64,000 bases of DNA. It comes from Ignavibacteria bacterium. GTDB lineage: Bacteria; Bacteroidota; Ignavibacteria; Ignavibacteriales; SURF-24. The stretch covers positions 1-64,000 of the forward strand of contig JAAXKN010000005.1 in the NCBI GenBank assembly GCA_025612375.1. Reading direction: 5' to 3'. A program made the translations under genes and the position numbers. Of this stretch, positions 20,984-47,650 are shown piece by piece. Numbering within the stretch: position 1 is the stretch's first letter; every line of letters starts with the position of its first letter. The notes below the pieces were generated by a model. That model worked only from the letters and a program-made list of their open reading frames with translations, had not been told where the DNA came from and did no database searches.

Positions 20984-21042
20984 CATAAACTTAACTGAGG
21001 CCTTTGAACAGGCGGACTCTTCTTAATCAGTGTGACAAAAAA

Positions 21043-22263
21043 ATGGGAATTCAGAATATATTAAATCTCTTTCAGGGTATAGCCACTCTGGCGGCTTCAG
21101 ATCCGAAGATAATAATTGCAAGGATAAGCCTTATTTTCTTAGGGATGCTCCTTGTTTATCTAGGTAAAAGAGAAATTCTTGAACCCTTGCTCATGATACC
21201 AATGGGTCTGGGCATGTCTGCAATTAACGCAGGAGTGCTTTTCTTCAGCAACGGGCAGCAGGGGAACCTTTTTGTCGATCCGCTAATTACAGATCCCAAG
21301 GCTCTGCTTGACATACTGCAGATTGACTTTCTTCAGCCTATTTATACGCTTACATTCAGCAACGGGCTGATTGCATGTTTTGTTTTTATGGGCATAGGTG
21401 TTCTTCTGGACGTTGGGTTTTTACTTGCGCGTCCGTTTTTAAGCATGTTTCTTGCATTGTGCGCAGAACTTGGCACATTTGCAACAATTCCAATCGCTAA
21501 AGCACTGGGCCTCAGTCTGAATGACGCCGCCTCTATTGCCATGGTAGGAGGAGCAGATGGGCCCATGGTGCTTTTTACTTCTCTTAGCCTTTCAAAAGAT
21601 CTTTTTGTACCTATTACTGTAGTAGCTTATCTTTATCTCGGGCTTACGTACGGGGGCTACCCGTATTTAATTAAGCTGATGGTGCCAAAGAAGCTGAGGG
21701 CAATAAAGATGCCCCCGAAGAAAGCCTCACGCGCCGTCACCTCGGGAGAAAAGATGGCCTTTGCAGCGGTTGTAAATACGGTTTTGTGCCTTCTCTTCCC
21801 CGTTGCCGCCCCGCTGTTTGTTTCACTTTTCCTGGGCGTTGCAATAAGGGAGTCGGGTCTTAAGCATTTCATAGATTTTATAGGGGGCCCGCTCCTCTAC
21901 GGATCAACATTCTTCTTAGGGTTCCTGCTTGGAGTGCTTTGTGAAGCTCATTTAATACTTAATCCCAAGGTTTTAATTCTTCTTGTTCTCGGCATAATTG
22001 CCCTTCTTCTCTCCGGAATAGGAGGCATATTAGGGGGCTATATAATGTACTTTATCACCAGAGGCAAGTTTAATCCTGTAATAGGCATTGCAGGAGTCAG
22101 CTGCGTGCCGACAACAGCCAAGGTGGCACAGAAATCCGTCAACGAGGTAAACCCCGAAGCGCTCATCCTGCCAGAGGCAATTGGCGCAAACATTTGCGGG
22201 GTTATAACTACGGCAATTATAGCAGGTATATACATAACGCTGATTCCTGCGTTCCTGAAATAA
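21043..22263 (+). CDS. Divergent OadB/MmdB-type sodium-pump beta subunit
   Basis: 406 aa with about ten membrane segments. The ADGP motif carries the key Asp172 (GGADGPM), the Tyr 26 residues later is present (AYLY), and a late NPVIG-IAGVS motif begins at Asn344, so residues linked to Na+ and biotin handling in OadB are mostly kept. Differences from the second copy at 23594 include DGPM for DGPT, GGYPY where PPI/PPV is usual, and Lys360 where OadB has a conserved Arg. I prefer ATG 21043; a TTG at 21004 is in frame with GAGG nearby and would add 13 polar residues. It follows mmdC and the 39-aa subunit, so it is probably co-transcribed with them. Confidence 0.82.
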   Translation: MGIQNILNLFQGIATLAASDPKIIIARISLIFLGMLLVYLGKREILEPLLMIPMGLGMSAINAGVLFFSNGQQGNLFVDPLITDPKALLDILQIDFLQPIYTLTFSNGLIACFVFMGIGVLLDVGFLLARPFLSMFLALCAELGTFATIPIAKALGLSLNDAASIAMVGGADGPMVLFTSLSLSKDLFVPITVVAYLYLGLTYGGYPYLIKLMVPKKLRAIKMPPKKASRAVTSGEKMAFAAVVNTVLCLLFPVAAPLFVSLFLGVAIRESGLKHFIDFIGGPLLYGSTFFLGFLLGVLCEAHLILNPKVLILLVLGIIALLLSGIGGILGGYIMYFITRGKFNPVIGIAGVSCVPTTAKVAQKSVNEVNPEALILPEAIGANICGVITTAIIAGIYITLIPAFLK

Positions 22264-22596: not shown

Positions 22597-23532
22597 ATGA
22601 CAATTGAAATGATATTCTGGGCGGCATTTGTGCTCGTCTTTATTATAGTCTTTACGGTGGATATGTTTGTCACCGACCACAGAAATGGGTCCATAGGCAT
22701 AAAGCAGGCTCTAAGCTGGACAGCCGTATGGATCTCGGTTGCACTCTTATACGGAGCTGCAATATACTTTTTTTATCCGGGAGGAAACGAGAAAGCCACG
22801 GCATTTGTGGCAGGGTACCTTACCGAGTACTCACTTTCTGTTGACAACCTATTCGTCTTTATTATGATCTTCTCTGCCATGGCAATAAGCCAGAAGAACC
22901 AGCCCAGAATGCTTAAAATTGGTATTCTGCTTTCAATAATCCTGAGGATACTCTTTATTTTATTCGGAGTAGGCCTTCTGCATACATTCCACTGGCTTAT
23001 TTATGTATTCGGCGTTGTGCTCCTTTTTACGGCCTATAAAATGGCCTTTGCCGGCGACGAAGAGATCGATCCGAACAATAATTTCTTCTACAAGAAAGTT
23101 TCAAAATATCTGCCTATTGAGAATAACCCGGATTCACATCATTTCTTTATAAGAAAGAAAGGTATAATCCATGCAACTCCGCTTTTTCTGATCTTTATTC
23201 TTATAGGTACTACAGACATAGTCTTCGCCCTGGATTCCATTCCGGCAATTCTAGGCATTACAACAGATTCATTTTTAGTAATTACCTCTAACGTTTTTGC
23301 AGTACTGGGGCTCATTTCCCTCTTCTTTGCCCTTGAAGGAATAATGCACATATTCAGGTACTTAAAGCAGGGTGTTGCAGTTATACTCTTGTTTGTGGGC
23401 ATTAAGATGATCATCTCGGGATGGATTCAGATTCCGATTAGTTTCTCTCTTCTTTTTATCGTTTTAACCCTGAGCGCTTCAATACTTATGTCGGTTATTA
23501 TTAAACCCAAAGAAGCAAAGGCTGTTGAATAA
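22597..23532 (+). CDS. TerC/Alx-family integral membrane protein
   Basis: 311 aa with about eight or nine membrane segments. The TerC family signature is clear: an early charged pair in TEYSLSVDNLFVF and the second copy in IGTTDIVFALDSIPAILG. Family members export Mn2+ or other metals, or load metal onto exported proteins (Alx, MeeF/MeeY, plant TerC). TGGAGA precedes the ATG. The gene lies in the same direction between the two beta subunits of the decarboxylase cluster, with an unusually long leader, so it may be regulated separately. Substrate is not predictable from sequence alone. Confidence 0.9.
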   Translation: MTIEMIFWAAFVLVFIIVFTVDMFVTDHRNGSIGIKQALSWTAVWISVALLYGAAIYFFYPGGNEKATAFVAGYLTEYSLSVDNLFVFIMIFSAMAISQKNQPRMLKIGILLSIILRILFILFGVGLLHTFHWLIYVFGVVLLFTAYKMAFAGDEEIDPNNNFFYKKVSKYLPIENNPDSHHFFIRKKGIIHATPLFLIFILIGTTDIVFALDSIPAILGITTDSFLVITSNVFAVLGLISLFFALEGIMHIFRYLKQGVAVILLFVGIKMIISGWIQIPISFSLLFIVLTLSASILMSVIIKPKEAKAVE

Positions 23533-23593: not shown

Positions 23594-24712
23594 ATGAGTT
23601 CTTTATTCGTCGGGCTGATGTCCATCACGTGGCAGCAGATTGTCATGATCGGAGTAGGCAGCCTGCTGATATACCTGGCAATTGCAAAAGAATATGAGCC
23701 TTCACTCTTATTGCCAATAGGTTTTGGAGCAATACTTGCAAATATCCCCCTTTCTGCCGCAATTACGCACGGAGGGGAAAAAGGGGTACTTAACATATTT
23801 TTTGATGCGGGTATACTTACAGAAATATTCCCTCTTCTTATCTTTGTTGCCGTAGGCGCAATGATAGACTTTTCGCCGCTTCTAAAGAAGCCTTACCTGC
23901 TCTTATTCGGCGCAGCGGCACAGTTTGGTATTTTCTTTACAATGATGGTTGCAACACTCTTCGGCTTCTCACTGAAGGAAGCAGCCTCAATAGGCATCAT
24001 TGGAGCAGCTGACGGGCCGACGTCGATTTATGTAGCCACAAAGTTCGCCAAGGAGCTCCTGGGGCCGATCTCGGTTGCGGCATATTCATACATGGCGCTG
24101 GTGCCGATAATTCAGCCTCCTGTAATCAGGGCCCTTACAACAAAAAGTGAAAGAAAGATCAGGATGGAAAGCCACGCCAAAAGCGTCTCTAAAACAGTGC
24201 TTATCTGCTTCCCGATTATAATTACAATTTTTGCCGGAATCATTGCTCCTTCATCGGCAGCACTGATCGGATTTCTGATGTTTGGAAACCTTATCCGCGA
24301 ATGCGGAGTCTTAAATAAACTTTCTCTTTCGGCGCAGAATGAGCTGGCAAGCCTGGTTACAATTCTCCTTGGAATTACAATTGCCTGCACGATGACCGCC
24401 GAAAGATTCCTACAGCCCCAGACGCTCATTATTATTGCCCTGGGACTTGTTGCCTTTATTTTCGATACCGCGGGCGGAGTCCTCTTTGCCAAGTTCCTTA
24501 ACCTCTTCTTAAAGAAAAAAATGAACCCCATGATAGGCGCCGCGGGCATTTCGGCCTTCCCTATGTCTGCACGCGTAATACATAATATGGGTCAGGCAGA
24601 GGATCAGTTTAATTTTCTGCTTATGCATGCCGTAAGCGCAAACGTTGCCGGCCAGATAGGCTCTGTAGTTGCAGGCGGCCTTATTCTGGCATTAGTCGGC
24701 TCAATGCTGTAA
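23594..24712 (+). CDS. mmdB: Sodium-pumping decarboxylase beta subunit (MmdB/OadB type, canonical)
   Basis: 372 aa and about nine membrane segments. All residues reported as important in OadB have counterparts: Asp140 in GAADGPTSIY, a Tyr 26 residues later in AYSYMALVPIIQPPV, and Asn311, Gly315, Ser320 and Arg327 in NPMIGAAGISAFPMSAR. It decarboxylates carboxybiotin and exports Na+. AGGAGA stands 8 bases before the ATG. It is separated from mmdA/mmdC by the TerC gene and is paired with a 61-aa OadG-like protein. It could serve the methylmalonyl-CoA enzyme or another biotin-dependent decarboxylase whose alpha subunit is elsewhere. Confidence 0.9.
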   Translation: MSSLFVGLMSITWQQIVMIGVGSLLIYLAIAKEYEPSLLLPIGFGAILANIPLSAAITHGGEKGVLNIFFDAGILTEIFPLLIFVAVGAMIDFSPLLKKPYLLLFGAAAQFGIFFTMMVATLFGFSLKEAASIGIIGAADGPTSIYVATKFAKELLGPISVAAYSYMALVPIIQPPVIRALTTKSERKIRMESHAKSVSKTVLICFPIIITIFAGIIAPSSAALIGFLMFGNLIRECGVLNKLSLSAQNELASLVTILLGITIACTMTAERFLQPQTLIIIALGLVAFIFDTAGGVLFAKFLNLFLKKKMNPMIGAAGISAFPMSARVIHNMGQAEDQFNFLLMHAVSANVAGQIGSVVAGGLILALVGSML

Positions 24713-26838: not shown

Positions 26839-26985
26839 TCTGCCGCCGGTTTTATTAACAGGTTAAAGAATATACTAATTTTAGACTGAACAAGTTAGTG
26901 AAATAAATGTTAATTTTCCCTTGCCTTTTTTAAGGTTTAAGCGCTTATTTTTGCCATAAATAATTAAAACTAATCAGGAGATAAA

Positions 26986-27939
26986 TTGGCTGTAATTGCA
27001 ATCGATCTGGTGTCTACGGGTCTTACCAGTGCGGCTTTAGGAAACTCCGGCAAAGTCCTGTTCAAAGAATCTCTTAGTATTGAGGGTCTGAAGGGAGCGG
27101 AAGTAAGCCGCCTCATCAAAGGCCAGATAACAAAAATATTAAATCTTTACAAGAACAAGCCGATACAGATAAAATCAGCAGGCATTTCTGTCCCCGGCAT
27201 ATATAATTCAAAAACAGGCTGCGTCTGGGCGCCCAACATAGAAGGGTGGGAGGAATATCCCCTTAAGCAGGAAATGAAGTTCTTTCTTATCGAGCATGGC
27301 GTTAACGTAAAAATTGCAAACAACAGGACGTGTTATATTTTAGGCGAAATGTGGCTGGGGGCCGCACAGAAGTCCAGAAACGCCATTTACCTTTCTATTG
27401 GTAAAGGCATCGGCGCCGGGATACTTGTAGACGGCAACGTGCTCCACGGTTTTAACGACGGCGTGGGCGCCGCGGGCTGGCTTGCTCTTAACGATTCATT
27501 TGTGCCTGACTATAAGCTCCGCGGAAGCTTCGAATTCCACGCCAGCGGCAACGGCATACTGAATTCTGTAAGGACGCAGCTCGAAAAGAAAAAGGATTCC
27601 TCAGGCGTGCTTGCGCAGAAGGACCCGCGCCAGATTACACTGCACGACATATTTGAAGCATACCGCCTCAAGGATTCAATTGCCAGGAAAGTCCTCCATC
27701 AGAGCCAGAAATACTGGGGCATTGCCGCAGCCAACCTGATCAGCCTTTTTAATCCCGAGATGATAATCTTCGGAGGCTCCGTCTTCGGACCGGCGCAGCA
27801 GTTCCTGGAAGAGATAAAGCAGGAGACTGCAAAATGGGCACAGCCCCTTTTTATGAAGCAGGTTAAGATCGTAGGCTCTCAGCTGGGCTCGAATGCAGGC
27901 CTTATAGGGGCCGGGAACCTGGCGATGAAAAAGTTTTAA
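26986..27939 (+). CDS. ROK-family protein with degenerate kinase site
   Basis: 317 aa with the ROK actin-like fold: phosphate-1 region AIDLVSTGLT and the ROK signature region IGKGIGAGILVDGNVLHG. Key kinase features are altered. The catalytic Asp of the usual NDAN motif is Asn113 (ANNRTCYILGE). The substrate-binding GEIGH is GAAGW (161-165). The CxCGxxGCxE zinc motif is absent around 175-185. It has no N-terminal DNA-binding helix, so it is not a NagC-type repressor. I chose TTG 26986 because AGGAGA stands 5 bases before it and the ROK fold begins there. It may bind a sugar without phosphorylating it. The SIS-domain gene follows on the same strand. Confidence 0.8.
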   Translation: MAVIAIDLVSTGLTSAALGNSGKVLFKESLSIEGLKGAEVSRLIKGQITKILNLYKNKPIQIKSAGISVPGIYNSKTGCVWAPNIEGWEEYPLKQEMKFFLIEHGVNVKIANNRTCYILGEMWLGAAQKSRNAIYLSIGKGIGAGILVDGNVLHGFNDGVGAAGWLALNDSFVPDYKLRGSFEFHASGNGILNSVRTQLEKKKDSSGVLAQKDPRQITLHDIFEAYRLKDSIARKVLHQSQKYWGIAAANLISLFNPEMIIFGGSVFGPAQQFLEEIKQETAKWAQPLFMKQVKIVGSQLGSNAGLIGAGNLAMKKF

Positions 27940-28093
27940 TTATTTAAGTAGAAAATGTCAATAAGTTTTTTAAAGAAAATTATTCCTGCCGATTTTTTAT
28001 GCAATCAGATAAATTTCGATTGTAGTTCAGAAAGATTAAGCTGGATTTTTTTCACAACAATATAAATAATCAAAGTATATCAGGAGATAAGAA

Positions 28094-28858
28094 ATGTCGT
28101 TAGCAAAGCAGTGGTTAGATAACGCAAGAGGCGTGATGGATAATATTGAATCGACTCAGATGGAAAACATCAGAAAGGCTGCAGAAGCCATGGCCGACAC
28201 AATAGAAAAGGGTCATTGGGTCCATACATTCGGATGCGGTCACGCTACAATTCCAATTCAGGAAATGTACCCCAGGATCGGCGGGTTCGTAGGATTTCAT
28301 CCTATGGTTGAACTTCCCCTTGGATTCTTCACACATATTGTAGGCGAAATGGGCGTCCATCAGTTCGTATTCTTAGAGAGAGTTGAAGGCTATGGTGTTG
28401 AAATCATGAAAAGCTACAACTTCCATTCTGACGACTGCATGTGGATATTCTCACACTCAGGAATCAACAACGTCAATATCGACATTGCACTTGAAGCTAA
28501 AAAACGCGGCATGAAGGTAATTGTATTCGGTTCAGCTGCAGCTGCAAAGGGCAAGAAGACAAGACACTCATCAGGCAAAACCATATTTGATATCGCTGAC
28601 ATCGTAGTTGATTCATGCGCTCCGATTGAAGATGCTTCAGTTCCATTGAAGAACCATCAGGATAAGATCGGACCTATTTCCACACTGGCATTTGTAACAG
28701 CCGTATGGATGACAATTACAACTGTAGCTGAAATTCTGGCTGACCGCGGTGTTAAGCTCTACATTCATCCTTCACACAACGTTCCAGGCGACACAACTGC
28801 AAAAGACAGGCTCACAGAAGCTCTTGCAGAATACAAGAAAAGAGTGGCCGGAGTATAA
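28094..28858 (+). CDS. SIS-domain sugar-phosphate-binding protein (UPF0309-like)
   Basis: 254 aa with one SIS domain. HTFGCGHATIPIQEMY and WIFSHSGINNVNIDIALEAKKRGMKVIVFG match the phosphosugar-binding loops. The protein is of the stand-alone UPF0309-like type related to sugar isomerases and MurQ-type enzymes. AGGAGATAAGAA precedes the ATG. It follows the ROK gene by 154 bases, and ROK kinase plus SIS protein is a common amino-sugar catabolic pair, but here the ROK kinase site is degenerate. Substrate not known. Confidence 0.85.
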   Translation: MSLAKQWLDNARGVMDNIESTQMENIRKAAEAMADTIEKGHWVHTFGCGHATIPIQEMYPRIGGFVGFHPMVELPLGFFTHIVGEMGVHQFVFLERVEGYGVEIMKSYNFHSDDCMWIFSHSGINNVNIDIALEAKKRGMKVIVFGSAAAAKGKKTRHSSGKTIFDIADIVVDSCAPIEDASVPLKNHQDKIGPISTLAFVTAVWMTITTVAEILADRGVKLYIHPSHNVPGDTTAKDRLTEALAEYKKRVAGV

Positions 28859-28892: not shown

Positions 28893-28925
28893 AAAAGGCG
28901 GGATCACCAACAGGTTCCGCCTTTT
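28893..28925 (+). terminator. Rho-independent terminator after the SIS gene
   Basis: AAAAGGCGG pairs perfectly with CCGCCTTTT over a 15-base loop, followed by CTATTTTT. It lies 35 bases after the SIS-domain stop codon. Confidence 0.85.
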
Positions 28926-28990: not shown

Positions 28991-29205
28991 CCCCTAGCTG
29001 AAGCTAGGGGCTAGTCATAAAGACAAAATCGTGTTTAATTAGCCGGGGAGACAAGTTCCCGAACGGATAATCGGGGGCTGAAGCCCCAAATGGGAGAGAG
29101 GGGAATTTCCGGGTACCCCGACCTAAAAGGTCGGGGTTTAATGACCCCAGACACACCCCCGGGGCTTTAGCCCCAGATTCCGAACGAAGGATCGGGGGTA
29201 GTCAT
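28991..29205. repeat. Cluster of REP/BIME-like palindromes
   Basis: Several related hairpins are packed between two convergent genes. CCCCTAGCT-GA-AGCTAGGGG at 28991-29010 is followed by CTAGTCAT. GGGGGCTGAAGCCCC lies at 29073-29087. CCCCGACCT-AAA-AGGTCGGGG lies at 29116-29136. GGGGCTTTAGCCCC at 29161-29174 is followed by CGGGGGTAGTCAT at 29193-29205. The pair of hairpins at 29073-29136 aligns with the single element at 47585-47642. The gap 28926-29218 contains nothing else. Confidence 0.75.
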
Positions 29206-47578: not shown

Positions 47579-47650
47579 AAATCGGGGGCTGAAGCCCCGC
47601 TGGATAGGGGCATTTCCTAAACCCCGAGCTAAAAGCTCGGGGCTAGTCAT
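47579..47650. repeat. REP/BIME-like palindromic element before the GH13 gene end
   Basis: GGGGGCTGAAGCCCC is followed after about 25 bases by CCCCGAGCT-AAA-AGCTCGGGG (47622-47642) and the tail CTAGTCAT (47643-47650). It aligns with the pair of hairpins at 29073-29136. It lies 14 bases from the stop codon of the minus-strand GH13 gene, so it may double as its terminator. The rest of the 47426-47663 gap has no gene. Confidence 0.7.

Follow-up and report, generated by a model that had tools for sequence, protein, structure and literature searches.

A probable ROK-family pseudokinase retained alongside a paralogue with intact kinase motifs in Ignavibacteriales-like bacteria

The window, a stretch of 64,000 nucleotides of DNA from an Ignavibacteria bacterium, carries a gene for a ROK protein, here termed ROK-B. 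In agreement with the original prediction, ROK-B is very probably a pseudokinase, because three ATP or catalytic sites were lost together in one clade that is under purifying selection; by the same sequence evidence its paralogue in the same genome, ROK-A, is catalytically intact. As the best overall explanation, to which we give about an even chance, a duplicated amino-sugar kinase has turned into a non-catalytic regulator. The features of the locus are as follows (window coordinates).

26976 to 26980, plus strand: ribosome-binding site AGGAG, read directly from the sequence, preceding the TTG start of ROK-B.
26986 to 27939, plus strand: ROK-B, predicted HTH-less ROK pseudokinase of 317 residues (PF00480, 1e-38; 15 orthologues).
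27004 to 27021, plus strand: degenerate phosphate-1 (ATP) motif, residues 7 to 12, DLVSTG instead of DLGGTK (all 15 ROK-B lack GG and Lys, which all 21 ROK-A retain).
27322 to 27324, plus strand: Asn113 codon (AAC) at the catalytic-base position, by alignment to E. coli NagK D105.
27403 to 27405, plus strand: Lys140 codon replacing the phosphate-2 Thr, by alignment to NagK T132.
27466 to 27480, plus strand: GAAGW, residues 161 to 165, replacing GExGH (GAIGW in ROK-A).
28094 to 28858, plus strand: SIS_2 protein of PRK02947/UPF0309 type, distantly homologous to NagS of Streptomyces (PF13580, 1.7e-42; NF002805, 235 bits against a cut-off of 135).
28893 to 28925, plus strand: possible terminator 3' of the SIS gene; such sites are no more numerous in the region than in shuffles.

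The orthologues begin at the residue that corresponds to the TTG start of ROK-B. In the profile search, PF00480 matched with E=1e-38 and 134 bits (gathering cut-off, 22.9) over profile positions 2 to 293 of 294. Residues 4 to 315 constitute the ROK domain, and no further domain is present. Specifically, the domain search over all 317 residues detected no N-terminal HTH, so that the predicted absence of a DNA-binding helix held and ROK-B does not qualify as a ROK transcriptional repressor. The best sequence match in the PDB was the ROK glucokinase 2qm1 (7e-29). An AlphaFold model computed from four sequences was weak (pLDDT 65.8) and as such unsuited to active-site modelling; its fold matches ROK glucokinases, best 3vgk. 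No Rfam matches were obtained around the locus, and no common operator was found upstream of the ROK-B genes. The palindrome AAGCGCTT upstream of ROK-B was rejected as a conserved operator, since it is missing from all other upstream regions examined.

A search of 59 related genomes yielded two paralogous groups with 45 to 87% identity to the ROK-B of the window, clearly apart from all other ROK proteins (33% or less). ROK-A of the window genome (G000:C5:131193-132137) is located approximately 103 kb further along the same contig, is 49% identical to ROK-B, and has kept DLGGTK, Asp113, GTG, and GGG. Both groups were aligned with E. coli NagK as residue ruler. ROK-A retains DxGGTK, Asp113, and Thr140 in 21/21 sequences and is apparently a working kinase. 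In the 15 ROK-B proteins, position 113 is Lys (10 proteins) or Asn (five), and position 140 is K, S, N, or R in 14, with Thr only in genome G107. The ATP-phosphate motif DxGGTK has become DxxSxx in all 15. The loss of the Asp in 15/15 orthologues, against its retention in 21/21 paralogues, is far beyond chance. The ROK-B of the window still possesses Asp7 (NagK D6) and Thr11 (T10), whereas Val-Ser stands instead of the phosphate-1 Gly-Gly and Gly12 takes the place of NagK Lys11; none of the 15 sequences has Lys12. The metal-binding Asp7 is present in 14/15, and ROK-B has invariant residues of its own, Ser10 (15/15) and Thr14. Judged against ROK sugar kinases, the catalytic Asp, DxGGTK, and the phosphate-2 Thr are thus missing from the ROK-B sequence. 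In NagK of P. shigelloides, the exchange D105N lowered activity below detection, a loss of at least 1000-fold; D6N and D6A were likewise below detection, and T10V or T132V also led to loss of activity (PMC10031466).

The original prediction had named three departures from ROK kinases, of which only Asn113, aligned with NagK D105, separates ROK-B from ROK-A when orthologues are compared. The other two were correctly described but misread as marks of kinase loss. GAAGW does replace GEIGH, and the cysteine zinc motif, consensus GHx9-11CxCGx2G(C/H)xE (PMC2742894) and including C-x-C-G-x-x-G-C, is absent in ROK-B. However, G-A/S-x-G-W occurs in both groups and the zinc motif is incomplete in ROK-A as well, so that in view of the catalytically intact ROK-A both are clade traits and no evidence of lost catalysis; as pseudokinase marks they were discarded. 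The changes in the ATP-phosphate motifs (DLVSTG and K140) had been missed.

Among the five sugar-binding residues of the GNE kinase, N516, D517, E566, H569, and E588 (PMC2742894), ROK-A by alignment keeps only the equivalents Asp113 and Glu183, and in ROK-B Glu183 alone is left, joined in five proteins by Asn112. With so few of these residues, the sugar pocket is predicted to be unusual throughout the ROK-A/B clade. Residues invariant in both groups (G66, P70, G71, W81 to N84, W88, R114, G164, W165, and E183) should lie on the sugar side of the cleft, which ROK-B would then largely retain. Position 179 is Lys or Arg in 13/15 ROK-B proteins and mostly Cys in ROK-A; together with the frequent Lys at 113, this at most hints at a phosphorylated ligand. 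Because ROK-A is itself only a presumed kinase and makes its sugar contacts through an atypical set of residues (S112, A162, and W165), even GlcNAc is uncertain as the ligand.

In the tree, calculated with two outgroup loci left out, ROK-B forms a single clade with support of 100/100, also after removal of the motif columns, and this clade falls within the A-type sequences. A constraint uniting the ROK-A rows of the order in one clade was not rejected (p-AU 0.41), and the exact branch point of ROK-B is thus not fixed. For four genome pairs, dN/dS was 0.066, 0.050, 0.019, and 0.137 for ROK-B and 0.051, 0.109, 0.101, and 0.129, respectively, for ROK-A; the ratios are rough, as synonymous distances ranged from 0.8 to 2.9, and two further pairs were saturated. 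Purifying selection on ROK-B is as strong as on ROK-A, and ROK-B is a selected protein rather than a relic.

The ROK-A/B clade was found in 17/164 genomes of the order. The SIS protein occurs in 17/17 genomes of the clade and in 0/147 others, and ROK-B, present in 15 of the 17, never occurs without the ROK-A/SIS set; the two operon genomes lacking it are G018 and G102. Most carriers possess a ROK-A-MFS-SIS operon (e.g., L033, L091, and L092), which, with no ROK-B seen nearby, recurs within the phylum in another family and in one genome of the Chitinophagaceae. In the genus of the window the set is split: ROK-B and SIS are in the window, while ROK-A and MFS lie approximately 103 kb on, beside nagA and a NagZ-like GH3 gene. 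At least two copies of NagA (TIGR00221) were detected in 14/17 carriers versus 3/147 non-carriers (Fisher 7e-15, with genomes that are not independent). Genes for GH18, GH9, exo-glucosaminidase-type GH2, and DUF5009/HGSNAT proteins are located near the loci of carriers in several genomes. Overall, the neighbors NagA, NagZ, GH18, GH2, and GH9 are indicative of amino sugars derived from chitin or chitosan. The window genome has two nagA genes (G000:C52:15032 and G000:C5:133492); a second copy goes along with possession of the ROK operon.

The history that we favor would begin with one duplication of the amino-sugar kinase ROK-A, encoded in the ROK-MFS-SIS operon, in the ancestry of the Ignavibacteriales-like carriers. 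In ROK-B the catalytic base and the residues contacting the ATP phosphates are gone, but its fold persists, as does the greater part of the sugar side of the cleft. Most likely it would now regulate how amino sugars are taken up and catabolised, by binding a ligand and without catalysis; the ligand would be the sugar or perhaps its 6-phosphate. A role as ligand-binding regulator of amino-sugar use is evenly balanced in our estimate, with a putative mechanism of protein contact, the simplest form of which would be a mixed dimer of ROK-B and ROK-A. ROK proteins dimerise via the large lobe (PMC2742894, PMC10031466). ROK-B is often encoded apart from ROK-A, and fixed-ratio heteromers are therefore not obvious; the mixed dimer is a tentative proposal, distinctly less probable than the regulatory role itself.

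ROK proteins are the standard example of how a single fold can act either as a sugar kinase or as a repressor. With the sugar kinases NagK, NanK, and ROK glucokinase (TIGR00744; PDB 2qm1, 3vgk, and 7p9l), ROK-B shares the full-length ROK fold without HTH, the metal-binding Asp7, and a large part of the sugar side, but it lacks the catalytic Asp, GGTK, and the phosphate-2 Thr, and like ROK-A also ExGH and the zinc motif. With the transcription factors NagC, Mlc, and XylR it has in common the ROK fold, a broken ATP-phosphate motif, and, presumably, a sugar-binding module made regulatory; these proteins have an N-terminal HTH, which ROK-B does not, and NagC and Mlc of E. coli retain the Asp (HDI) and the zinc cysteines, whereas ROK-B lost the Asp. 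Yeast Gal3 and inactive hexokinases are duplicated sugar kinases that lost catalysis and kept sensing; the parallel lies in the way of working, as these eukaryotic proteins have unrelated or distant folds. ROK-B would represent an intermediate state on its own, with the kinase residues lost and no DNA-binding domain, long kept alongside its kinase twin. The two paralogues, which share the GAxGW-type motif, the missing zinc motif, and the pathway, offer a matched pair for studying the change from bacterial sugar kinase to sensor. Searches of the open-access literature turned up no account of a ROK pseudokinase lacking an HTH.

An alternative with an appreciable though minor chance is that ROK-B serves a TonB-receptor locus rather than ROK-A, as a cytoplasmic sugar sensor that controls an outer-membrane uptake system, in its expression or its activity, via a putative DNA-binding or membrane partner. 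Strong receptor homologues (E of 1e-180 or lower) were present in 14/15 ROK-B genomes and in 0/149 others, the latter including G018 and G102; the fifteenth ROK-B genome contains a receptor fragment. ROK-B is divergent from the TonB-dependent receptor gene in 10 genomes, and in an eleventh from the fragment just mentioned. The receptor gene is followed by one for a protein of approximately 700 residues without Pfam match (T9SS-like tail), and often by a PorV-like gene. Examples of the receptor loci, among others, are L038:5097-8243, L050:7539-10697, and L107:8814-12017. Across the order it is this locus, rather than SIS, that accompanies ROK-B in the genomes. The receptor gene lies elsewhere in four of the ROK-B genomes, and the match is therefore not mere linkage, though shared descent contributes. 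However, G018 and G102 cluster in the tree, so that their joint absence of ROK-B and receptor may be one event, and shared descent accounts for part of the pattern. Furthermore, such control would have to operate with neither an HTH in ROK-B nor a common upstream operator. A further reading, in which a distinct class of HTH-less ROK pseudokinases, with the ATP site dismantled and basic residues gained, would act as sugar-6-phosphate sensors governing ROK-A and the TonB-dependent uptake locus purely via protein contact, appears somewhat less probable still.

The original prediction had proposed that ROK-B is perhaps a regulator of the SIS protein. The animal glucokinase regulatory protein is a SIS protein binding a hexokinase-fold enzyme, which this arrangement would mirror. 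The two genes of the window are adjacent on the same strand with a 154-bp gap and no predicted terminator between them, and the SIS gene co-occurs perfectly with the ROK clade. The adjacency proved to be local, being present in only 2/15 ROK-B genomes (the window and G001), both of the genus of the window, whereas SIS lies beside MFS and ROK-A in the majority of carriers, as it does in further families of the phylum without ROK-B seen. A genuine connection between ROK-B and SIS exists, but it is indirect: throughout the phylum, SIS forms part of the operon of ROK-A and MFS, and regulation of SIS by ROK-B or a direct partnership of the two is improbable. With about 72 to 93% identity, conservation of the SIS protein greatly exceeds that of the ROK proteins. 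It matches NagS (SCO4393, the Streptomyces GlcNAc-6P dehydratase; PDB 9eol) distantly, with 1.8e-25 and 93 bits over 239 residues. Within the shared SIS fold, the essential His53, Arg64, Glu94, and Asp179 of NagS (PMC12680351) are kept, as is Asn228, whereas Ser54 and Ser91 are replaced by Ala and Val, respectively. NagS orthologues among Streptomycetaceae are at least 58.7% identical (PMC12680351), and the SIS protein falls below this value. Homologues outside Streptomycetaceae with 26 to 36% identity had no or negligible GlcNAc-6P dehydratase activity (PMC12680351); as distant homologues are inactive or nearly so in these assays, an assignment of the SIS gene as NagS is not supported. The survey also brings to light an amino-sugar operon, ROK-MFS-SIS, that spans the phylum and contains an uncharacterised SIS enzyme.

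That ROK-B is still a kinase or other enzyme, using a different base or phosphate donor, is highly unlikely. Asp7 is kept in 14/15 proteins, and seven ROK-B proteins have an Asp four residues past the lost catalytic one (IASKRTCDILGE). However, the protein of the window has Tyr there, the P-loop Gly-Gly and Lys are gone as well, and D105N inactivates a ROK kinase (PMC10031466). Decay to a functionless gene, suggested by the lost catalytic residues, has next to no probability and was ruled out together with a sequencing artefact, given 15 intact, stop-free genes, dN/dS of 0.02 to 0.14, and the clade's own invariant Ser10 and Thr14.

Elsewhere in the window, two homologous membrane proteins (21004 to 22263 and 23594 to 24712) are encoded on either side of a third, multi-pass membrane protein (22597 to 23532). 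Intergenic palindromes of the form GGGGCT-N2-AGCCCC, located at 29074 to 29087, 29161 to 29174, and 47585 to 47598, are commoner than in shuffles and possibly represent a repeat element.
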